Below, piece after piece: positions 510 through 18,325 of a DNA stretch of 20,266 bases. The stretch spans positions 1 to 20,266 of the IMG/VR virus record IMGVR_UViG_3300014827_000026; one strand, given 5' to 3'. The notes beneath the pieces are model-generated. The model was not told the origin of the DNA. It saw only the letters and a list, made by a program, of their open reading frames with translations, and made no database searches. The DNA comes from a virus. The position numbers and the translations under genes were made by a program. Numbering within the stretch: position 1 is the stretch's first letter; each line of letters starts with the position of its first letter.

Positions 510-1379
510 TCACTCGCACAAGCCGTATTTACTCTCGCAACTTGGCCTATCGAGTTCCTTTAGGATGTTGAATTGATAGCCGCCGTAGTCTGTTTTCGAC
601 CATTCAACAACCTCGTCTATCCAGTTGTGAATGCTGAGTTTACCTCTTCCATCGATGCGGGGTTTGATACCCGGCACGCATGGCGCAAAAAAAGTGCGGT
701 TGGTTGACTGTTCCCAACCCCGTACCTTGTCAATCATCTCGGGGGCGCGTCTAGCCCAGCTTGCGATGTCTTCCTTCCCGTTATTCACGCAAGGTGCACA
801 TCCTACCCGGCTAAATCCTAGCGAATACAGGTAGTTGATCGGCTCGCCTTTTACGCTCTCAAAGCATTGCGGCTTCAACCATTCGACCAATGGGCAGCGA
901 TATTCGCAGTCCAGCAATGTATCCCACCCCACCTCCGGCTGATCGGCTCGGTCTCCACTTTCTTCGCGGCGAACACCGCTGTAGCGCGTGAATTCCTCAT
1001 CACCCATATTCGATTCAATCCAGCGCACCATCGGATTGATCTTGAGTTTTTCGGTACAGAATTGAGCCGTCTTACTAGGGAAGCGCCCTTTGATCTTTGC
1101 CATCAATTCGAATGTCAGCGGCTCTTCGCTGCTCATCTGGTAGTGATTCTCGGCCCAGAGCGGCGTCTTCCACATATCCGCGAGGATCGGCTGCAACCTC
1201 ACTACATGATGAACAGTTCGGCTATATTCCTCGACGAATTCTGTCGTCAATGGGTGCTCATTCCCTCCCGCATCGGAGTTGAGGAGAATTACGTCCTCGG
1301 CGCGATATCGATTCAACACCCACCGCGCACACGCCTGAGAGTCAATACCCCCGCTAAATCCAACAATATGCTTAGACAT
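510..1379 (-). CDS. PAPS reductase-like PP-loop protein (phage type)
   Basis: 289 residues of the phosphoadenosine phosphosulfate reductase / PP-loop ATP pyrophosphatase superfamily. The PP-loop SGGIDS is at residues 9-14. A GVRREES motif near residue 135 is typical of the family. Cys residues follow at C194-x2-C197, C234 and the C-terminal C281/C288 (CESKYGLCE), an arrangement phage members share and which may bind an Fe-S cluster or metal. Family enzymes activate sulfate or transfer sulfur; relatives include DndC of DNA phosphorothioation. No other dnd gene is visible here, so the phage substrate is unknown. The start is an ATG behind AGGAAAGAG, 10 nt after a small membrane-protein gene. 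Family assignment is firm; the reaction is inferred. Confidence 0.85.
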   Translation of the reverse strand: MSKHIVGFSGGIDSQACARWVLNRYRAEDVILLNSDAGGNEHPLTTEFVEEYSRTVHHVVRLQPILADMWKTPLWAENHYQMSSEEPLTFELMAKIKGRFPSKTAQFCTEKLKINPMVRWIESNMGDEEFTRYSGVRREESGDRADQPEVGWDTLLDCEYRCPLVEWLKPQCFESVKGEPINYLYSLGFSRVGCAPCVNNGKEDIASWARRAPEMIDKVRGWEQSTNRTFFAPCVPGIKPRIDGRGKLSIHNWIDEVVEWSKTDYGGYQFNILKELDRPSCESKYGLCE

Positions 1380-5283: not shown

Positions 5284-5472
5284 CTACAACTTGAACCCGT
5301 CGTGCCTGCGGAAGTATACGGGCTTGCCGTCCTCCCATTTGATGGTCGTTTCTCCGTAGAAGTGAGGGCCTACCAGCGCCGCTAACTGTGAGGCCGCACG
5401 ATAGACCGCATCCGCCACAGCCGGCATCGTCTCCGCCGCGTGCTCCTCTGTTCTCATTTGCTCAGTCGCCAT
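5284..5472 (-). CDS. Hypothetical small phage protein (62 aa)
   Basis: Lies directly after the head-protein gene, overlapping its end by 11 nt. The ATG at 5472 (MATEQMRTEE) follows AAGGGA; an alternative ATG lies at 5484 and another at 5457. The protein has an Ala-rich helix (VADAVYRAASQLAALV), then a short beta-type tail (HFYGETTIKWEDGKPVYFRR). No domain is recognised. Its place behind the head protein and ahead of the secreted protein puts it in the structural transcript. Confidence 0.6.
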   Translation of the reverse strand: MATEQMRTEEHAAETMPAVADAVYRAASQLAALVGPHFYGETTIKWEDGKPVYFRRHDGFKL

Positions 5473-7204
5473 CTTTCCCTTCATAATAACCCGAGCTGCA
5501 TCGGCAGTTGTGAACTATAATTGAATTGCCGATGTACCATCCATCTTTTGTTTCGAGGTTATACACTTGCCCCCTAAAATTGCCTCTCTGGATGCTAGCG
5601 ATGTTATCAAGGAATACGTGTCCGGCAGTACGATCGAACAGATTGCTTTGCGAAACGGGTGCAGTATCACACCCATTCGTTCTATCTTGCTCGACAACAA
5701 CATTAGCAGACGCTCTGGTCGCGCTCCTCGTATCGCGTTGCCTGACGTTGATTCCATTGTGCGCGAGTATCTTTCTGGAACCAGCGAGCAGGCCATCAGC
5801 CAACGCCTTTCCGTCAGCCGCTCCGTCGTGCGGCGCGCGCTGATTGAGAACAACGTTCCCATCCGAAGCGGCAGTGCGGCCATGTTCATGCGCCAATCGA
5901 GAATGACCCCAGAAGAACGCAGCCGCCTTGTGGCCCCATGCCACGATGCGGTTCGTGGCGTCAAGCGCAGCGTCAAAGAACTGGTCAAGCGAGCGGCTAC
6001 TCGGCAAGGACTCTTGAATGTCGTCAGCGAGTACGAAGAGAAATTTGCTGGGATGCTGACCTCCATGTCCGTTGTGTTTGATCGGCAGACGGCGGTGGGT
6101 CCCTATAATTGCGATTTCACCATCGGAACTGTCGCCGTGGAAATCTTCGGAGGACACTGGCACTTCTCTGGTCGCCATCTTGCCCGAGCTAAGCAAAGAT
6201 TCCACTATCTCCTGAATCATGGCTGGGATGTTCTGATTATCGTAGTCAGGAGCGGTAGACCGTTTGGAATCGAGGCTGCAAAGTACGCTATCTCCTTTGC
6301 GCAGAATACCGGCATTGACCCATCCGCTGTCCGTCAATACCGGATGATTCGGAGTAATGCGGAGGAGCTTGCCCGATTCCGTGCGGATGATAATGATATC
6401 CCCGTCGTATTTCCTCGCGCTAACCCCCGTGATGGTGACACCGGGCGATACAAGAGTGTCCCCAAGTAAGCAGTTCGGATGAGCGGGGGGAACGTCGTCG
6501 CCGGACTCGAAATCGTCATCGATCGGGATGCGCCCCTGCTCTGAGTTCGGGATGCAAATCTCTTCGCACGCGGTATCGTCGGGAAGCCAGCTCTTGAACT
6601 TCATCCCCGCGCCCTTTGCCGCTTCATGCGTCCCGCGCGACCTGGCGTAAGCCGTCTCCGTTCGCCCAATCATCAGCGCACGTTGAGCGCCAAACTGCTC
6701 ACTCTCCATGATCTTGTGCTGCAGTTGGCTCGTAGTCCATCCTTTGTCGATGGATTCGGTGACAAGATCCTTCAGCGCTCCCCGCGTCGTCTCCGTGATT
6801 GACCACTTCGCGTCCGGGTTGTCGATGATCTTACCGTTCGGCAGAACTCTCTTTCCCACCAGCTCCGCCGCACGCTTCGCCGCCATCTCGCGCGCCTGGG
6901 CCAGCACCTGCGTCCATAGCGGGTTGGGTGCAGCATCGATCACCTCGGGGATGTGGATGCTCAGCAGATACTCTTTGGCGGCGTCGACGGCCTCATCCTG
7001 GGTGATCGGAGCAATCTCCGGAATCAGGCTCGCCCAATCCATGTTCACTTCGATGATGCGCTCGAGGTCTTCTTTGCGCTTGGCGTTGTCTGCTTTCGCA
7101 AGATCGTCAGCCCCGGCCGCCGCGGCAATCGGCAGCGAAATCAGCAGACTATCGGCGATGGCTTGCCCTTTGCGCTTGAGGTACGCGGCTAATACTGACT
7201 CCAA
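5462..7204 (-). CDS. SPP1 gp7/Mu F-type head morphogenesis protein interrupted by an intein
   Basis: The precursor has 580 residues. The N-extein (1-244) carries the MuF/SPP1 gp7 signature: a helical segment with IGRTETAYARSRGTHEA near 180-196 and the C-terminal DVPPAHPN. The motif PPAHPN-CRC is split by an intein (residues 245-566), leaving a C-extein of only 14 residues starting CRCSSGYY. Spliced product would be 258 residues. MuF proteins are minor capsid components that enter the prohead with the portal; the portal gene is immediately upstream, overlapping by 16 nt. The start appears to be TTG at 7204 (LESVLAAYL); no ATG precedes residue 54. Family assignment is strong; the TTG start is less so. 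Confidence 0.9.
   Translation of the reverse strand: MESVLAAYLKRKGQAIADSLLISLPIAAAAGADDLAKADNAKRKEDLERIIEVNMDWASLIPEIAPITQDEAVDAAKEYLLSIHIPEVIDAAPNPLWTQVLAQAREMAAKRAAELVGKRVLPNGKIIDNPDAKWSITETTRGALKDLVTESIDKGWTTSQLQHKIMESEQFGAQRALMIGRTETAYARSRGTHEAAKGAGMKFKSWLPDDTACEEICIPNSEQGRIPIDDDFESGDDVPPAHPNCLLGDTLVSPGVTITGVSARKYDGDIIIIRTESGKLLRITPNHPVLTDSGWVNAGILRKGDSVLCSLDSKRSTAPDYDNQNIPAMIQEIVESLLSSGKMATREVPVSSEDFHGDSSDGEIAIIGTHRRLPIKHNGHGGQHPSKFLFVLADDIQESLPSSRSLDQFFDAALDATNRIVAWGHKAAAFFWGHSRLAHEHGRTAASDGNVVLNQRAPHDGAADGKALADGLLAGSRKILAHNGINVRQRDTRSATRASANVVVEQDRTNGCDTAPVSQSNLFDRTAGHVFLDNIASIQRGNFRGQVYNLETKDGWYIGNSIIVHNCRCSSGYYEGKDGD
5516..5558 (+). promoter_or_regulatory. Candidate -10 box and Shine-Dalgarno of the antisense nuclease
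   Basis: A perfect TATAAT (5516-5521) is 45 nt before the TTG start of the nuclease and a GAGG (5555-5558) is 8 nt before it. No good -35 box is present at the expected distance. The TATAAT is the complement of intein block G codons (Ile-Ile) and the GAGG is the complement of block F codons (Asn-Leu-Glu), so these signals sit in splicing-essential sequence. Confidence 0.4.
5567..6469 (+). CDS. Vsr/EDxHD-like homing endonuclease encoded antisense within the intein
   Basis: 300 residues entirely inside the intein DNA but on the opposite strand. The N-terminus has two homologous helix-turn-helix units of about 45 residues (roughly 7-51 and 57-102), each following D.I.EY.SG...AI...S...V/I R..L..NN..RSG. 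The C-terminal nuclease (about 145-235) has an acidic helix (EYEEKFAGML), then NCDF (D183), VEIFGGHWH (E192, H197, H199), H204 and HGWDVLIIVV. This is the layout of Vsr-like/PD-(D/E)XK nucleases, as in EDxHD homing enzymes. The start is TTG at 5567 with GAGG 8 nt upstream (5555-5558). The TAA stop ends one base before the intein Cys1 codon. Its codons pair exactly with intein codons (residue k opposite precursor residue 547-k). It probably cuts intein-less head-protein alleles. Confidence 0.85.
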   Translation: MPPKIASLDASDVIKEYVSGSTIEQIALRNGCSITPIRSILLDNNISRRSGRAPRIALPDVDSIVREYLSGTSEQAISQRLSVSRSVVRRALIENNVPIRSGSAAMFMRQSRMTPEERSRLVAPCHDAVRGVKRSVKELVKRAATRQGLLNVVSEYEEKFAGMLTSMSVVFDRQTAVGPYNCDFTIGTVAVEIFGGHWHFSGRHLARAKQRFHYLLNHGWDVLIIVVRSGRPFGIEAAKYAISFAQNTGIDPSAVRQYRMIRSNAEELARFRADDNDIPVVFPRANPRDGDTGRYKSVPK

Positions 7205-8895
7205 GCTCGCTCGCCCTTTGCGAAAGGGGCGTCGGCTACTTTGCCAGCCCCCTTGCCCGCTCCGGATTTGCCCTTCGAACCAGATGCGCCCGCATCGTCA
7301 CCGCCGGCCGCCGCACCGGCAGCTTGCGGCATCTCCGTCTGTCCAGCCAACACCGACAGCGGAATCGCGCCCGAAGCTGTATAGACCATCGCGACGTCGC
7401 CGCCCTCAATCGGATCTTGGCCAGCCCGCACGCGCTGCTCGTTGATCGTCTCGCGTCCGAGCTTGAGGTAGGTGCTGTCAATCGTCGCCTGGTCCGTAGC
7501 GGCTACTTCGCTGTCCAGCGACCACACCATCTCCACATTCGCGTAGTCCGGACCCCATCCCATGACGATGAGGCGGTCCATGAACGCCTTCCACCACACC
7601 ATCTCGACCTGGATGCCCTGCTCTTCGATCTGCTCTTTTTCCTGCTCGGCAGATGCGCGAGATTGCGGCTCTTTGACGAACGGCTTTGGAAGCACGCGGA
7701 AGACGTGGCACACGATCCGGGTCAGCCATTCGTCATAATCGGACTTCAGCAGTTCGCCGGCTGAGCCCTTCATCTCGAACGGCTTCATCCCGCCGGGGAT
7801 AAACCGAATCTTCGACTTCAGGTTCATATTGCCAGACATCAGCGCGTCGAAGGATGCTTGCCAGATGGCAATGGCTTCTGGACTCCACGTCTCCGGTACT
7901 CCCAGCATGACGTCGGGGATCGTGCCTTTCTCCCAGAAGTTCGTCATGTAGAGCGTCTTCTTCACCATCTGAAGCGCTTCCTGCATGATCTGCTCAACTT
8001 CGGAGTATCCGCCGATGGGAAAGTCAGTTCGCGGGCGCGCCGGCATGTACAGAAGCTCGTCTTCCGAGAGGTTTACAAGAGGTAAACCTTTTACAATCTG
8101 CTGGTAGCCGGGCTGGGGAGCGTCAGGGATGCGGCCCCAATCGTCGATCAGCGGCTTGATCGTCGCTCCGTCAATAGCCGTAATCGCATAGGGCTTGTTG
8201 CCGAGCTTGTTCTTCCACACGAAGGCGGAAGCGGCGTCGATGGTGTAGCGATCGCGGAAGATCATCCGCATCCACATTGCGTAGGGAATCTTGCGGTCCG
8301 GCTTCTCGAAGAACTGCGTCAGCTCTTTGATGCGCGGATCTTGCTCGGACTTCTTTCCGCCCGATTCCTTGAGCGCGAACTTCCACGGCAGCGCCACAAC
8401 CTCATCGATGCGCGATTCCATCACCGAGGCAATCACGCCAGACGCAGCCGCGAGAGCGCGAAGCATGCTGAACAACTGCAGCCGCTTCGGGTAGATGTCG
8501 AGGTTCGTTCCTACCTGGTAGTCGTAGGCGCGGGGATAGTTGACGTTCGGAGGGCCAAACGGATAGACGGGCTGGAAGGGGCTGAAGAAGTTCCCGTCCA
8601 TGTCGACGTCGGCGATGAAGTCGGGAGGATTGTCGCGGTCTCCAAAGCCTGGGCGGTTGTTGTCATGCCCTGCGAGTAGGTTGGCGGGCACGCGCTTTAG
8701 GCCGGTGTTACCTTCCAAGGTTCTGCCCTGAAAATTTCCCGGTTGACGAGCTCCGCGCGACGGCCCTGAGAGGCCAGAACCCGGCGATATAGGGGTGTTC
8801 GTGCCGCCTGACGGGCCTTTGGCGAAGAGTTCTTCCACGCTGGGGCGCTTGCCGTAGCCGGTGAAGGTTGGGTCTTTGGTCTCGTCATCCAGCAT
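7189..8895 (-). CDS. Phage portal protein
   Basis: The start is the ATG at 8895 (MLDDETKDPTF), set by GGAGGA 6 nt upstream; the open frame extends to 8946 without a site. 568 residues, in the normal portal range. An unstructured Gly/Pro-rich N-terminus (to about 100) precedes the portal core: ALAAASGVIASVMESRIDEV near 160-180, KFALKESG, a FRDRYTIDAASAFVWKN region, LPLVNLSEDELLYMP and a C-terminal clip/crown part (YLKLGRETINEQRVRAGQDP). The C-terminus is Ala/Gly-rich with many lysines. The portal ring forms the DNA-entry vertex of the capsid and docks the terminase. It overlaps the head-protein gene downstream by 16 nt, the standard portal-MuF order. The call rests on segment patterns and context. 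Confidence 0.85.
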   Translation of the reverse strand: MLDDETKDPTFTGYGKRPSVEELFAKGPSGGTNTPISPGSGLSGPSRGARQPGNFQGRTLEGNTGLKRVPANLLAGHDNNRPGFGDRDNPPDFIADVDMDGNFFSPFQPVYPFGPPNVNYPRAYDYQVGTNLDIYPKRLQLFSMLRALAAASGVIASVMESRIDEVVALPWKFALKESGGKKSEQDPRIKELTQFFEKPDRKIPYAMWMRMIFRDRYTIDAASAFVWKNKLGNKPYAITAIDGATIKPLIDDWGRIPDAPQPGYQQIVKGLPLVNLSEDELLYMPARPRTDFPIGGYSEVEQIMQEALQMVKKTLYMTNFWEKGTIPDVMLGVPETWSPEAIAIWQASFDALMSGNMNLKSKIRFIPGGMKPFEMKGSAGELLKSDYDEWLTRIVCHVFRVLPKPFVKEPQSRASAEQEKEQIEEQGIQVEMVWWKAFMDRLIVMGWGPDYANVEMVWSLDSEVAATDQATIDSTYLKLGRETINEQRVRAGQDPIEGGDVAMVYTASGAIPLSVLAGQTEMPQAAGAAAGGDDAGASGSKGKSGAGKGAGKVADAPFAKGERAWSQY

Positions 8896-9115
8896 GGGTT
8901 CCTCCGAATAGCTTTTGGCGCATCTCTTTGCGTATCCGGTCCTCATGGCTTTGGATCAGCAAGTCCATCGTATCCTGCTCGCGAACGAAGCTCGCATCCG
9001 CGTGGGCTGCTTCGATCATCGGGAGCGCCTGGCGGTAGTTTCCGGTTGCCATGATCTTTCGCGCCGCCGCGAGGTTCTTTCTCGCCGCGTTCAGTGTTTC
9101 AGCTTTGAACCCCAT
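8885..9115 (-). CDS. Small helical phage protein ahead of the portal (76 aa)
   Basis: Start placed at the ATG at 9115 (MGFKAETLNAARK), just after the preceding small gene's stop, with GAGAGG about 10 nt upstream. An ATG at 9136 would overlap that gene. The 76 residues are almost wholly helical: LNAARKNLAAARKIMATGNY followed by RQALPMIEAAHADASF resembles a single TPR-like helical hairpin, then QSHEDRIRKEMRQKL. Its 3' end overlaps the portal start by 11 nt. Function unknown; it could be a scaffold-like or portal-accessory protein, but nothing shows this directly. Confidence 0.6.
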   Translation of the reverse strand: MGFKAETLNAARKNLAAARKIMATGNYRQALPMIEAAHADASFVREQDTMDLLIQSHEDRIRKEMRQKLFGGTHAG

Positions 9116-12976: not shown

Positions 12977-13432
12977 TCAAAATCTTGGCTTGCCGTTGCG
13001 CCGGGTTTTATGGCCAGAAGCATAGCGCGGCGGGCAGTATGTGATCTTCACTTCGCCTGGGATAAAGGGTTTGAGTTCCCCGCACGCGCTGAGAATTTCT
13101 CGAATGACAGCATCGCAATCTTGCCAGATTTGAATGTTTGAGAACCGCAGTGTGCGATAGCCACGGCTGCGCATGTAGCTCTCACGGCGTTCGTCATAAT
13201 CCTTCCGCCCGGCGTGGGACGCGCCATCGGCTTCGATGATGAGTTGCGCGTAGGGGATATACAAGTCTGCGATGTACGGGCCGATGACGTGCTGAAGATG
13301 GACTCGGGCGGTTGTAGTGGCCAATGCATTCGTGAGAGCGCTGTAGAGTCTGCCTTCGGTGCGCGTCGGCTTCATACGCATCTGATGGGCGAAATCTGAG
13401 GTTTCATGAACAGTATATTTTCTAGTATTCAT
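12977..13432 (-). CDS. DUF559-type (Vsr-fold) endonuclease
   Basis: The ATG at 13432 (MNTRKYTVHETSDFA) is used; a TTG at 13447 is in frame. 151 residues covering almost only the nuclease fold: TRTEGRLYSAL (E26), VIGPYIADLYIP (D56), LIIEADGASHAGR (E67, D69, H73), RGYRTLRFSN and a terminal helix (DAVIREILSACG). This is the DUF559/Vsr-like PD-(D/E)XK family, in which the second acidic motif is E.DG..H. It lies alone between the helicase-methyltransferase and TerS. Free-standing nucleases beside terminases may be homing endonucleases or packaging helpers; nothing here decides. No strong ribosome site is visible. Confidence 0.8.
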   Translation of the reverse strand: MNTRKYTVHETSDFAHQMRMKPTRTEGRLYSALTNALATTTARVHLQHVIGPYIADLYIPYAQLIIEADGASHAGRKDYDERRESYMRSRGYRTLRFSNIQIWQDCDAVIREILSACGELKPFIPGEVKITYCPPRYASGHKTRRNGKPRF

Positions 13433-13468
13433 AGGTTTATCAAACAAGGTCTAGCCTAGCACGGCGTG

Positions 13469-15712
13469 TCAAGAGGCTTGCTCTTCCTCGATTTCTTCGG
13501 GTCCGGGCTCTGCTGCGAAGAGTGGAGCATTTTCGCTGTAGGCAGCCGCGAGATTCTTTCGAGCTTGACGCCAGTACGACTCTTTCAATTCAGAGCCGAG
13601 AAACTTCCGCTGCATCTGCAAGGCGACGAACCCCTCGCTACCGATGCCCGCGAATGGGCTCCAAACGACGTCACCAGGGTTGGACCAAAGATGGATTCCG
13701 CGCCGGATCACGTCGAGCTGCAATGGGCAGATGTGGCGCTCATCGTCGTGCTCGCGTGCGGAGCGGTACTGCAGCGTGTCCGAGGGGTTGATATCCATCC
13801 ACACCGGCGATGCGTAGTTCTGCCACAGTTGGACGGGAAAATCTTCTGGCGTGTGTGCGATGTACTCAGTATTGAGTCCCGGCTTGCGCATGGTCACAAG
13901 GTAGTCTGCGATTCCTTGGCGGCTCATGCTGGAGTCCTTGCGGATTGTCTTATGAAGCAGCCCCAGGGCCTTCGTGCGCTGCATCGCCGTGACTGGATCT
14001 TTCCAGATGCAGACTTCCGAGTGGTAGATGAATCCGGCCTCTTCAAACGCGCGGATGATTTCGCCGCGGAAGTCGCGTAGGCCTATATAGCCGTTGCGAA
14101 CCTTGGATGTGGGCAGGTTCATGCAGTGAATCGAGACCAGCCGGCCGGGCATAAGTGCCCGGAACTGCTCGGCAATTAGGAACCGATAATGCTCCCAGAA
14201 CTGCTCAGATGTGGCGCTGTTCCCCATGTCTCGCGGGGAGTTGGAGTAGGTGTAAAGGCTCTCGAAAGGTGGGCTGTAGATGCTGTAATGAATGGAGTTA
14301 TCTGGAATCTCTCGCGCAGCATCCACGCAGTCCCCGAGCACGATCTTCCATCCTTCGCCCTCGGAACTGTCCTGCTTGTAGTGGGAAGACGTGCGGCTGG
14401 TCGACTTCAATTCTGCCGTCACCAGCTCCCGAACGTTGGCGGTCATTTCATCAGCCATAACTTCTGCATCTGCGTCCTTGCGTTTGATGTTTTCCAAGAC
14501 TGCTCCTTCCGTACTTGCTGCGATGATGTGTGCGTGAACTTCCCGAGTCTGGCCAAAGCGCCAAAACCGCCTGATTGCTTGATAAAACTGCTCCCATGAG
14601 TCATTCATCCCAACAAAGGCCGTGCGTGCGCAGTTCTGAGCGTTCACTCCGTAGCCCATGATGGTGCTCTTGCTGATGAGGACTCGCGTCGTGCCGTCCA
14701 AGAACGCCAGCAACTTCGATTCCTTCACTTCTGACGGGTCCGAGCCGGTAAGATTCACCGCGCCGGCAATCAGTTTGGTTAGCATCTCCGCTTCGGCATT
14801 GAGATTGCACCAAATCACCCACTGCTCTGTCGGTTCCGCATTCACGATTGCAGCGCATTCTGCCGCGCGGTCATCTACTGTGGCGCGCCTCGCTCCGATG
14901 CGCTCCTGCAATGTCTGGGCGGGCACAGCGAAGAGCATCCCTTCGGTTGCCGTCTCCACGTCCACCAGGTGCTCATGCATGTGCAGTGCGGGAAGGTTGA
15001 ACCGCGCGTCATCATAGCCCACGTCAGACGGTTTGCGGATGAATACAGCCCACGAACAGACCCACGCCCAGAAGTCTTTCTTCGCGTGCCCTTTGAGTCG
15101 CCAGTCTTGCGTTGATCCGCCATCGTGTGCGAAGAACATCGCAAGCATCTCCATGCGTCCCATTACGCCCAGAAACTCCGCATGGTTGCCGAGCTCGGTA
15201 TAGTCGTTCGGTGCCGGGGTGGCCGTCGCCGCCAGCCGGTAATCCGTCTTGCAGAACGCCTCAATCAGAGCTGTGCGCGTTGATCCATCGAACGACTTCA
15301 GGATGCTCGACTCATCCAGCACGACGCCCGAGAACATCGTAGGATCAAACTTATCAAGGCGCTCATAGTTGGTGACGTTGATACCTTGAATCACATCCTC
15401 AGGACCGGCGCAATACGTCGCTTCGATGCCGAACTTCGCACCCTCGCGGATTGTCTGCTTCGCCACTGCCAGCGGCGCCAGGATGAGAACCGGCTGCATC
15501 GTGTGAAGCCACACGCAACGCGCCCATTCCAACTCGATGAGCGTCTTGCCGAGGCCAGTGCCAAGGAACGCGGCTGCCTTGCCTAGCCGAAGAGCCCACT
15601 TCACCACGTCCACCTGATGCGGAAACATCGCGGGGTTGAGCGTGGGGATGGATTCCAACCCTTGAGGCTTGCATTGAAACGACTTGTGCGCAATGAAATC
15701 TGAGTAATTCAC
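13469..15712 (-). CDS. SNF2/DEAD-type helicase fused to DNA N4/N6 methyltransferase
   Basis: GTG start at 15712 behind GAGGAA, overlapping the previous stop (GTGA); 747 residues. The helicase part (1-425) has motif I GTGLGKT (51-57), motif II LDESS (133-136), motif III ATATP (162-166), and a C-terminal lobe ending QAIRRFWRFGQ (378-388), the SF2/SNF2 layout. The methyltransferase part (about 450-730) has DCVDAAREIPDNSIHYSIYS, then SPPF (480-483; motif IV) and, near the end, FAGIGSEG (687-694; AdoMet motif I). Motif IV before motif I marks a beta-class N4/N6 amino-methyltransferase. It probably translocates on or opens phage DNA while methylating it, either for protection or for control. No restriction partner was found. 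It lies between replication and packaging genes. Confidence 0.9.
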   Translation of the reverse strand: MNYSDFIAHKSFQCKPQGLESIPTLNPAMFPHQVDVVKWALRLGKAAAFLGTGLGKTLIELEWARCVWLHTMQPVLILAPLAVAKQTIREGAKFGIEATYCAGPEDVIQGINVTNYERLDKFDPTMFSGVVLDESSILKSFDGSTRTALIEAFCKTDYRLAATATPAPNDYTELGNHAEFLGVMGRMEMLAMFFAHDGGSTQDWRLKGHAKKDFWAWVCSWAVFIRKPSDVGYDDARFNLPALHMHEHLVDVETATEGMLFAVPAQTLQERIGARRATVDDRAAECAAIVNAEPTEQWVIWCNLNAEAEMLTKLIAGAVNLTGSDPSEVKESKLLAFLDGTTRVLISKSTIMGYGVNAQNCARTAFVGMNDSWEQFYQAIRRFWRFGQTREVHAHIIAASTEGAVLENIKRKDADAEVMADEMTANVRELVTAELKSTSRTSSHYKQDSSEGEGWKIVLGDCVDAAREIPDNSIHYSIYSPPFESLYTYSNSPRDMGNSATSEQFWEHYRFLIAEQFRALMPGRLVSIHCMNLPTSKVRNGYIGLRDFRGEIIRAFEEAGFIYHSEVCIWKDPVTAMQRTKALGLLHKTIRKDSSMSRQGIADYLVTMRKPGLNTEYIAHTPEDFPVQLWQNYASPVWMDINPSDTLQYRSAREHDDERHICPLQLDVIRRGIHLWSNPGDVVWSPFAGIGSEGFVALQMQRKFLGSELKESYWRQARKNLAAAYSENAPLFAAEPGPEEIEEEQAS

Positions 15713-16365
15713 GCCGATACCTCTTCCTGCGCATACGCTGCGCACCACTCCGCCTCAAGTTTCAGCCGGTCCCGCGTAGCCCCGTACTGCCCGTTGCCCG
15801 CTTGCTCTTCCTCCACGTAGCGCCGAAGATCCTGAATGCGCCTCAGGCCATCCGGGATAGTTCCGAATCCCACCAGGCGCAAGGCGCGAAGCTGGCGAGG
15901 CGTAAGAAGCGGCGCTGGGATGTCCGGACCACGGTCGGGAACCGGCATCACCAGCCCTTGTGCATCGCGTCCGTCGTTCAGAATCGGCCCTGGTGCCGTA
16001 CGAAGCGCTACGCCGTGCTTGGCCACCGCGTCCGCTATGAATCGCAAAGACGCCATAGCCTCCAGCCTTATCAAACTATCCGCGCTAGGCAGGGAAGAGA
16101 AACTTCGCAGTTCTGCCGGGCTGGGGAAGAACTTGCAGGTCTCGAGCGCTCGGCTGAACGCATGGATGCACTGCGCTGGGCTCGCCGGCGTCAGCACCGC
16201 CACGTAGGCTTCGATCACCCCCGTTGCCGTGATATCCCCTTTGAGCGTGTTCGCCAAGATCAGCAATGCTTTCGCTATCGATTGTTTGTGGTTGAGGTCC
16301 CGCGTCCACAAACCGCTGAAGAGCAGCGTAGTTTCCGTCTGTTTTGTTGTGTTTGCCAGTTCCAT
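15709..16365 (-). CDS. Putative replication-associated protein (218 aa), unrecognised
   Basis: GGAGGA lies 5 nt before the ATG at 16365 (MELANTTKQTETT), fixing the start inside the preceding gene's frame. The first ~120 residues are helical (SIAKALLILANTLKGDITAT, TPASPAQCIHAFSRALE) with a FFPSPAELRSF motif resembling the middle part of phage helicase-loader or primase-associated proteins. The rest is Pro-rich and ends in a charged helix (LKLEAEWCAAYAQEE). No ATPase motif is present. Its place between a replication-type gene and the helicase-methyltransferase suggests a role in replication, by context only. Confidence 0.65.
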   Translation of the reverse strand: MELANTTKQTETTLLFSGLWTRDLNHKQSIAKALLILANTLKGDITATGVIEAYVAVLTPASPAQCIHAFSRALETCKFFPSPAELRSFSSLPSADSLIRLEAMASLRFIADAVAKHGVALRTAPGPILNDGRDAQGLVMPVPDRGPDIPAPLLTPRQLRALRLVGFGTIPDGLRRIQDLRRYVEEEQAGNGQYGATRDRLKLEAEWCAAYAQEEVSA

Positions 16366-17471: not shown

Positions 17472-17702
17472 TTAGTTTTGCACATGGCGAGCCTTCAAGA
17501 TGCGCTGCCTATAGAGAATCGCTTCGCGGTCCGAGTGCTTGATCCTGCACTTGAGGCAGCGGGCCTTGTACTTCGGGTCTAGCGGGTCGCCACACTCGCG
17601 GCAGAGGTTGTTCGCCTTGCGGTAGGCTCGGAGGCGCTTGAGGGCGTCTCGCACACGCTGGCGCTGGATCTCGAGGTCTGGCAGCCAGTCATTTGTTGTC
17701 AT
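17472..17702 (-). CDS. Single zinc-ribbon phage protein (76 aa)
   Basis: Starts with an ATGA overlap with the stop of the HNH-AP2 gene. A basic helix (IQRQRVRDALKRLRAYRKAN) is followed by C34-x2-C37 and C49-x2-C52 (LCRECGDPL, ARCLKC), then a basic tail. The CxxC pairs with short spacing are those of a zinc ribbon. Proteins of this shape occur in many phages and are thought to bind nucleic acid, but the role is unproven. It shares a transcript with the HNH-AP2 endonuclease upstream. Confidence 0.75.
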   Translation of the reverse strand: MTTNDWLPDLEIQRQRVRDALKRLRAYRKANNLCRECGDPLDPKYKARCLKCRIKHSDREAILYRQRILKARHVQN

Positions 17703-18325
17703 GCCCCCCTCCCAAACTCACCATAAAGACGTTTCGCTGCGGCGCAGTAGACTGCGTGGGCCTCTTCCGGCGTTGAATATCTCCCGAGGTGGATCTTTCG
17801 ACGATTTACTCCGATCGAAGCCGCCCAAACCTTATCTCGGGTGTAAAAAGAAACGCCTTTGAATCCAGATGTGTTATGTTTCGCTCGTACTTGATTATGC
17901 GATTGTTCGGACTTGCTAGCCTTTCGCAGATTGCCATGTCGGCGGTTGTCAAGTCCCGTTTTTGGCCGGATGTGGTCGACAGTCCATTCATGGCCCGCCC
18001 ATCCAAAAAGATCAGAGTGCATCAGGATCGTTTTGCTCCGCCTCACGCCAGTAGCTATCTTCCTGGCAGCGCGAAAGTCGCCGGTGTTTTTGAATTTTAT
18101 CGCGTACCATCGCCATCGTTCAGCCCAGTCCGCGTCTTCAATCTCAATTAGGGCAAAGAGGCCGCGGCTGAGAGGGACATATGCAATGGATGGGCCGATT
18201 GGGCGAATGATGGCTGGAACTGGCTTTTTGTTCCCGTGGATCTTTAGGGGAGGCAGCCAGTCGGCGGTGTCGTCTTCCATTGGGGGGAGTTCGGGGCCGG
18301 TGGGGGGCTGGATTTGGTAGCTCAT
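17699..18325 (-). CDS. HNH endonuclease with C-terminal AP2 domain (homing-type)
   Basis: 208 residues. A Pro-rich N-terminus (1-35) precedes the HNH nuclease core: YVPLSRGLFALIEIEDADW, then WTVDHIRPKTGLDNRRHGNL (D117, H118, N127) and N144 in SEQSHNQ. The C-terminal 55 residues (NTSGFKGVSFYTRDKVWAAS ... YSTPEEAHAVYCAAAKRLYG) are an AP2-type DNA-binding domain. HNH-AP2 proteins are typical free-standing phage homing endonucleases. It lies between a small gene and a zinc-ribbon gene with ATGA overlaps on both sides, so it is integrated in the early operon. No intron is evident beside it. Confidence 0.9.
   Translation of the reverse strand: MSYQIQPPTGPELPPMEDDTADWLPPLKIHGNKKPVPAIIRPIGPSIAYVPLSRGLFALIEIEDADWAERWRWYAIKFKNTGDFRAARKIATGVRRSKTILMHSDLFGWAGHEWTVDHIRPKTGLDNRRHGNLRKASKSEQSHNQVRAKHNTSGFKGVSFYTRDKVWAASIGVNRRKIHLGRYSTPEEAHAVYCAAAKRLYGEFGRGA

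Follow-up and report, generated by a model that had tools for sequence, protein, structure and literature searches.

Inteins are usually pictured as a splicing domain with an in-frame endonuclease. The locus described here raises the question of where an intein keeps its nuclease when its own frame seems to hold none, and which of the two strands selection then maintains. We have analyzed the whole of a 20,266-base virus record (the window), for which an original prediction had placed a homing-type endonuclease gene on the opposite strand, entirely inside an intein of a head-protein gene.

An intein in a minor head gene

The portal gene of the window (7189-8946) lies directly upstream of a MuF-like minor head (head morphogenesis) gene at 5462..7204 (-), which codes for 580 aa and matches PF04233 Phage_Mu_F (E 2e-5) and phrog head families. 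The gene is interrupted by an intein of 322 aa at 5507..6472 (-), running from Cys1 to His-Asn/Cys+1 and inserted at HPN/CRC (the slash marks the junction), between an N-extein at 6473-7204 (-) and a C-extein at 5465-5506 (-), CRCSSGYYEGKDGD. The intein was recognised by the Pfam model Intein_splicing (PF14890, E 2.1e-9) and by the N- and C-terminal intein models TIGR01445/TIGR01443; the Pfam and NCBIfam intein models exceeded their cut-offs. Its motifs are CLLGDT..., TPNH and VHN/C, and the residues C1, N42, H43 and N322 are invariant in 42 relatives.

The splicing half N (blocks A and B with the TPNH motif) occupies 6248..6472 (-), opposite the C-terminus of the nuclease, and the splicing half C (blocks F and G) occupies 5507..5617 (-). 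In an AlphaFold model of the sense intein, built with its own relatives, the block means were 84-98 over residues 1-70 and 79-98 over the last ~40 residues, and Foldseek matched these Hint halves to the PhoVMA and Mtu RecA inteins. We infer from the residues, the Hint fold and the existence of intein-less alleles (see below) that the intein fits the class 1-type; splicing is predicted from the intact motifs and the fold. A fractured gene with a split intein is not what is found here, the sense ORF being single and continuous over 5462-7204. As a side observation, the label 'head protein' of phrog_15127 is misleading, since this family matches inteins as such, those in dCMP deaminase included.

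Between the two halves, the sense frame reads through an insert at 5618..6247 (-) that is translated filler and the complement of the nuclease gene (pLDDT <50). Residues 126-274 are mostly without a confident fold (pLDDT ~30), whereas the Hint halves are confident. Pfam recognised no nuclease domain between blocks B and F in the sense frame, giving Intein_splicing and Phage_Mu_F only, in agreement with the original prediction that this frame holds no nuclease.

A Vsr-like nuclease on the opposite strand

The complementary strand carries an ORF of 300 aa at 5567..6469 (+). It starts with a TTG codon at 5567, inside block F, and ends opposite Leu2 with a TAA stop (6467-6469) that is the complement of the Leu2 codon (TTA) and adjoins the Cys1 codon. 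Both frames are stop-free across the same 903 bp. The intein, the antisense ORF and its two ends are thus confirmed as originally described, by the reading of the ORFs and by the intein models.

Two helix-turn-helix (HTH) units precede the catalytic domain of the product. The first, residues 10-43 (5594..5695 (+); helices 10-18, 23-30 and 34-43), matched HTH_58 with E 4e-4, and the second, residues 61-94 (5747..5848 (+); helices 61-69, 74-81 and 85-94), also gave HTH matches. Some relatives have a single unit and that of Rhodococcus phage REQ3 has none. The Vsr/EDxHD-like catalytic domain, residues 152-271 (6020..6379 (+)), contains E157, Y180, N181, D183, E192, W198, H199 and R211, all in columns that are invariant or at least 90% conserved (alignment A4). 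Among these E157, D183, E192 and H199, invariant or at least 90% conserved in 47 relatives, are candidate active-site residues, which we take to be the metal-binding and histidine positions by analogy with Vsr; H199 is missing from some (Gordonia) relatives. A conserved sense motif, 'DFHGD..DGEV', had been considered as the sign of a sense domain and was rejected, since most of it is the nuclease core 'YNxDF...VAVE' read on the complementary strand.

The AlphaFold model of the nuclease had a pLDDT of 90.3, and structural comparison gave Vsr (1cw0) with Z 11.6 and an rmsd of 2.2 over 112 residues, the homing endonuclease I-Bth0305I (3r3p) with Z 10.0 and 3hrl with Z 9.4. A Vsr-like nuclease of 300 residues with two HTH repeats, as had been proposed, is therefore what the models and matches show. 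The profile match expected in the original prediction was obtained for the family, whose profile found the catalytic domain of I-Bth0305I (3r3p, E 1.5e-6) and the DUF559-like endonuclease 3hrl (E 2.5e-6), with MTES_1575 matched in 11 of 17 members; the nuclease of the window taken singly gave weak matches (3r3p E 0.2, MTES_1575 E 0.04). We conclude that the antisense protein is a real Vsr/EDxHD-like nuclease, for which cleavage and homing activity are predicted.

Which strand is under selection

The two frames lie codon-on-codon, with their middle bases opposite. By itself, openness of the ORF is weak evidence for a gene, because this phase mirrors similarity between the strands and GC-rich DNA easily accommodates long antisense ORFs. 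The antisense ORF could then be no gene but the shadow of a conserved sense insert, since the phase would mirror the conserved frame onto the other strand, and in the GC-rich Gordonia and Rhodococcus relatives antisense frames would be open by chance (P0 0.06-0.3). In the AT-richer relatives, in contrast, the probability of chance opening falls to ~1e-5 to 4e-9, and the tests that separate the strands place the constraint on the antisense frame.

The per-strand dN/dS values of the insert, the comparison suggested in the original prediction, were 0.04-0.20 antisense and 0.86-3.3 sense among the Guernseyvirinae relatives (Salmonella, Escherichia and Pantoea), and 0.22-0.28 antisense and 0.63-0.99 sense in two Gordonia pairs. 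We also compared the window with 80 relatives by a z test, based on the protein similarity expected on one strand if only the other is selected. Counting related loci as independent, as do the codon-bias statistics, the HTH-linker region was conserved antisense beyond the sense-based prediction (mean z 6.9), while its sense conservation was the shadow of the antisense (z 0.1). The same held for the complement of nuclease residues 18-177, where sense conservation was again the antisense shadow (z ~0). Over blocks A and B the last ~70 codons of the nuclease were constrained in both frames (z 3.1 antisense and 5.1 sense), as was also seen in pairwise comparisons. The codons TTA, CTA and TCA, which are stops in the sense frame, were absent from 19 of the 19 intein-borne nucleases examined, window included, with a chance of such absence down to ~5e-6; the free-standing relative of Acinetobacter phage IME285 has 12 of them.

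The dN/dS, z and stop-codon tests therefore indicate that the antisense protein is selected and the sense frame merely kept open, the splicing blocks excepted; conservation of the sense insert only reflects that of the nuclease. Given also the confident Vsr fold on the antisense strand against none for the sense insert, the probability that the ORF is a mere shadow is close to nil.

A different possibility is that the sense insert also codes for a functional domain, so that the region is dual-function throughout. In sense residues 75-125 there is some additional, weak constraint (z 2.0) along with a moderate degree of predicted structure, and the overlap with blocks A and B is constrained in both frames, both of which would fit. 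For most of the insert, that is the complement of nuclease residues 18-177, z is nevertheless ~0, sense dN/dS ~1 and pLDDT ~30, and a second function along the whole region seems unlikely to us. Nor does the selected antisense gene look like a decayed or dead element that survived by chance. Homing endonucleases often degenerate once fixed, and one unverified record (L029, Salmonella phage GE_vB_HIL) has apparent frameshifts that break both frames, probably sequencing errors. However, neither the catalytic nor the intein residues are disrupted in the window or in the relatives, where purifying selection is strong, and we hold decay to be highly improbable.

Start signals inside the splicing blocks

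Separate expression of the nuclease and of the head protein was part of the original prediction, and it is suggested at the sequence level by a putative -10 box, a ribosome site and a start codon, all in the final 60 bp of the intein. The predicted -10 box of the nuclease promoter in the window, TATAAT at 5516..5521 (+), lies in block G as the complement of Ile-Ile codons, 45 nt before the start codon. The predicted Shine-Dalgarno, GAGGT at 5555..5559 (+), lies in block F as the complement of the Asn-Leu codons AAC CTC. At the predicted promoter of the window no TG extension or -35 box was recognised, a sigma-70 scan of the region gave no excess above chance, and the presence of TATAAT in the window alone is at chance level. 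The -10 signal emerged only from an alignment of the relatives anchored at the end of the intein.

In 46 of the 73 inteins that were resolved, the nuclease starts exactly 20 codons ahead of where the intein ends. The codons of block F, 'H V Y N L' in the sense frame, are such that its complement reads GAGG...ATG. Its Leu is encoded by CTC in 57 of 70 inteins, where the usage of each gene would give 16. The His opposite the start codon is CAT in 45 and CAC in 4 (complement ATG or GTG), compared with 603 CAT vs 622 CAC elsewhere in the same genes; the probabilities of the start signals are overstated, the loci being related, and the control position in the same inteins, the penultimate His, is evenly split (23 vs 25). 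A perfect TATAAT was present 45 nt upstream of the start in 27 of 108 HN-ending inteins vs 2.9 expected (random synonymous codons, 100 trials, maximum 7) and, 26 nt upstream, in 12 of 32 SN-ending inteins vs 0.3 expected. The Ile codon of block G is ATA in 51 of 80 cases vs a 20% background, and the codon preceding it ends in A, which provides the TGn of an extended -10, in 50% vs 14%. The perfect hexamer occurs in about a third of the inteins and the predicted promoter consists of the -10 box alone.

We infer that the start codon, the ribosome site and the -10 box of the nuclease are written antisense in blocks F and G and kept there by biased synonymous codons, use of the promoter being predicted. 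That synonymous codons are tuned to the ribosome site and start is one more argument against a shadow ORF. A promoter located inside the intein would travel along with it.

Distribution and host genes

The nuclease was detected by tblastn in 124 phage records, whose hosts were Gordonia, Salmonella, Escherichia, Pantoea, Klebsiella, Pseudomonas, Vibrio, Cronobacter, Edwardsiella, Acinetobacter and Rhodococcus. Among the records examined it was located opposite a head gene and nearly always unannotated. A scan of viral contigs provided 175 relatives, and in 73 of 73 loci examined, which include some near-duplicates and the phage of the window, the sense frame was open through the entire nuclease. 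Because these relatives had been found via the nuclease, we ran a search from the sense side, with the degenerate splicing motif GHVYNL[EQ]T in any codons and without using the nuclease. The antisense nuclease was present in 78 of the 80 loci retrieved and the other two end at contig edges; a broken antisense frame opposite a conserved sense insert, the pattern named as incompatible with the original prediction, did not appear.

The nuclease was inside an intein at all loci but one, and missing where the intein was missing. Most of the host genes were head morphogenesis genes with the insertion at HPxC/RC. The intein unit was also found in a head maturation protease (L154), in a portal-MuF fusion and, at two different positions, in dCMP deaminase genes (L172, 718-2121 (-), and L197, 5186-6529 (-)). 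In Escherichia phage fEg-Eco06 (L031, 2108-3001) the intein occupies a second site of the head gene and the usual HPN/CRS site is empty; a scan with the nuclease of this phage gave no additional loci. Scans of the collection could not use the wide alignments A1 and A5, in which divergence was too high.

Some loci depart from the common arrangement. In Acinetobacter phage IME285 (L030, 455-2055; near-copy L120) a free-standing nuclease lies just downstream of, and convergent to, an intein-less head gene (...MCKCRAKLII...). It was considered as part of a split intein and rejected as such, the head gene being complete and intein-less with the nuclease beside it; it has the look of an ancestral form or of a copy that escaped. 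The antisense-nuclease inteins of Rhodococcus phage REQ3 (L032) and of loci L057 and L058 apparently have no Cys1 (HPN-AVLEG, ...AELPGNL). Elsewhere in the window we found a free-standing DUF559 endonuclease-like gene of the Vsr-like superfamily at 12977-13447 (-) (E 7.5e-23), possibly a free-standing homing endonuclease, and an AP2-domain protein with the appearance of an HNH-type homing endonuclease at 17699-18325 (-), possibly the third mobile nuclease of the record. A PAPS-reductase-like gene at 510-1379 (-) and a fused SNF2-type helicase and N6/N4 DNA methylase at 13469-15748 (-) were also identified.

Transfer between phages

Escherichia phage Snoke and Salmonella phage VSe103 have inteins that are 93-98% identical, vs 50-84% for the exteins. 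The identity falls sharply at the 3' intein border, and LSPA1 has the same border. The N-extein was found in 159 phage records vs 70 for the nuclease. Phage fEg-Eco19 has an intein-less allele, and there is an empty allele within the phage group of the window itself (L014), ending AHPN/CRC. The nuclease of the window is 24-46% identical to those of other loci, and the N-exteins were mostly undetectable by the same test. Judging from these comparisons, the intein unit has evidently been transferred between phages and is polymorphic for presence and absence.

The nuclease could be real and still serve the phage, in exclusion of rivals or in DNA processing or repair, instead of homing of the intein. 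Its low dN/dS and its presence in many phages denote a function that has been sustained, repair enzymes occur within the Vsr fold, and phage homing-type endonucleases may also act on co-infecting relatives. Yet the gene is intein-bound at all loci but one, is absent together with the intein, and occurs in several unrelated host genes; the intein-less alleles are clean, intein and extein identities contrast at the insertion site, and a homing endonuclease is among the structural neighbours. A nuclease devoted only to the phage appears quite unlikely in the light of these data, and homing and exclusion are compatible roles that are not mutually exclusive.

A model of the element

The window very probably contains a class 1-type mobile intein whose homing endonuclease is a separate, antisense nested gene with its own predicted promoter. 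We also think it probable, with somewhat more reserve, that it represents a large class of mobile inteins, with an antisense nested nuclease whose promoter, ribosome site and start lie in the complement of the splicing blocks, and which has made its way into the head, protease and dCMP deaminase genes of numerous phages. The head gene would be read late in infection through both exteins and the intein, and the Hint halves, as their intact motifs and fold suggest, would fold, excise themselves and join the head protein at HPN/CRC. On the opposite strand, RNA polymerase would start independently at the -10 box in block G and the ribosome in block F, producing the Vsr/EDxHD-type nuclease with its HTH DNA-binding units. 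The nuclease would cleave intein-less alleles of the head gene. Repair of the break on the template of the intein-bearing copy would then bring in intein and nested gene together by gene conversion; the empty alleles and the higher identity of intein than of extein point to these steps. With a promoter of its own, the nuclease could act ahead of the late expression of the head gene.

If this model is true, the two strands of one DNA segment have different products, the one a protein that splices itself and the other a homing enzyme with a timing of its own. The nuclease, decoupled from a late structural gene, could be expressed at another time, and this might be how an intein of a late capsid gene homes early enough. 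The locus is also a long and well replicated antisense gene overlap in which both strands, and the start signals of one, are under measurable selection. Finally, the analysis exposes annotation errors, such as the label of phrog_15127 and the many unannotated nucleases of well-studied phages, e.g. the Salmonella jerseyviruses.

Comparison with known systems

Like the canonical large inteins with an in-frame LAGLIDADG or HNH nuclease, the element has a Hint domain with Cys1, TxxH and HN/Cys, a nuclease between blocks B and F, and presence/absence polymorphism. Unlike them, its nuclease is a separate protein on the opposite strand with its own start signals, of the Vsr/EDxHD type with HTH units, and what the sense frame carries in its place is unfolded filler. 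Dassa et al. (2009; cited in PMC10448857) reportedly described fractured genes in which an EDxHD endonuclease lies between the halves of a split intein. These, together with I-Bth0305I (3r3p), have a nuclease of the same superfamily tied to inteins or self-splicing elements; here, however, a single frame runs unbroken through host gene and intein, and the nuclease overlaps them antisense. With Vsr (1cw0) and the DUF559/MTES_1575 families the nuclease shares the catalytic fold and the conserved pattern E...D...E...WH. In contrast to these, it has extra N-terminal HTH units, is nested in an intein and is not a repair gene. The EDxHD endonuclease family has been reviewed (PMC3943268).

Antisense homing endonuclease genes are known from the L2066 group I introns of nuclear rDNA (PMC9548176), where the gene likewise sits in a self-splicing element and is antisense to its host gene. 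Translation of the intron RNA is dispensable, whereas the intein needs both strands open, so that its coding is doubly constrained. An antisense endonuclease within an intein was not described in the literature searched, of which coverage was partial, and absence is not proven; each of the known systems has a part of the arrangement, and none in the papers searched joins an intein that splices to a nuclease on the other strand. The nearest published analogue is the ShiLan element (Arsenault, Gosselin, Gogarten 2025; PMC11855218), a non-splicing insertion with an HNH nuclease out of frame on the same strand and no detectable ribosome site. Each is inserted in a phage gene, reads in frame as open filler and hides a homing-type endonuclease in another frame. 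In the element described here, unlike ShiLan, this frame is on the opposite strand of a true intein, and it codes for a Vsr-like nuclease with an embedded ribosome site and a predicted -10 box.
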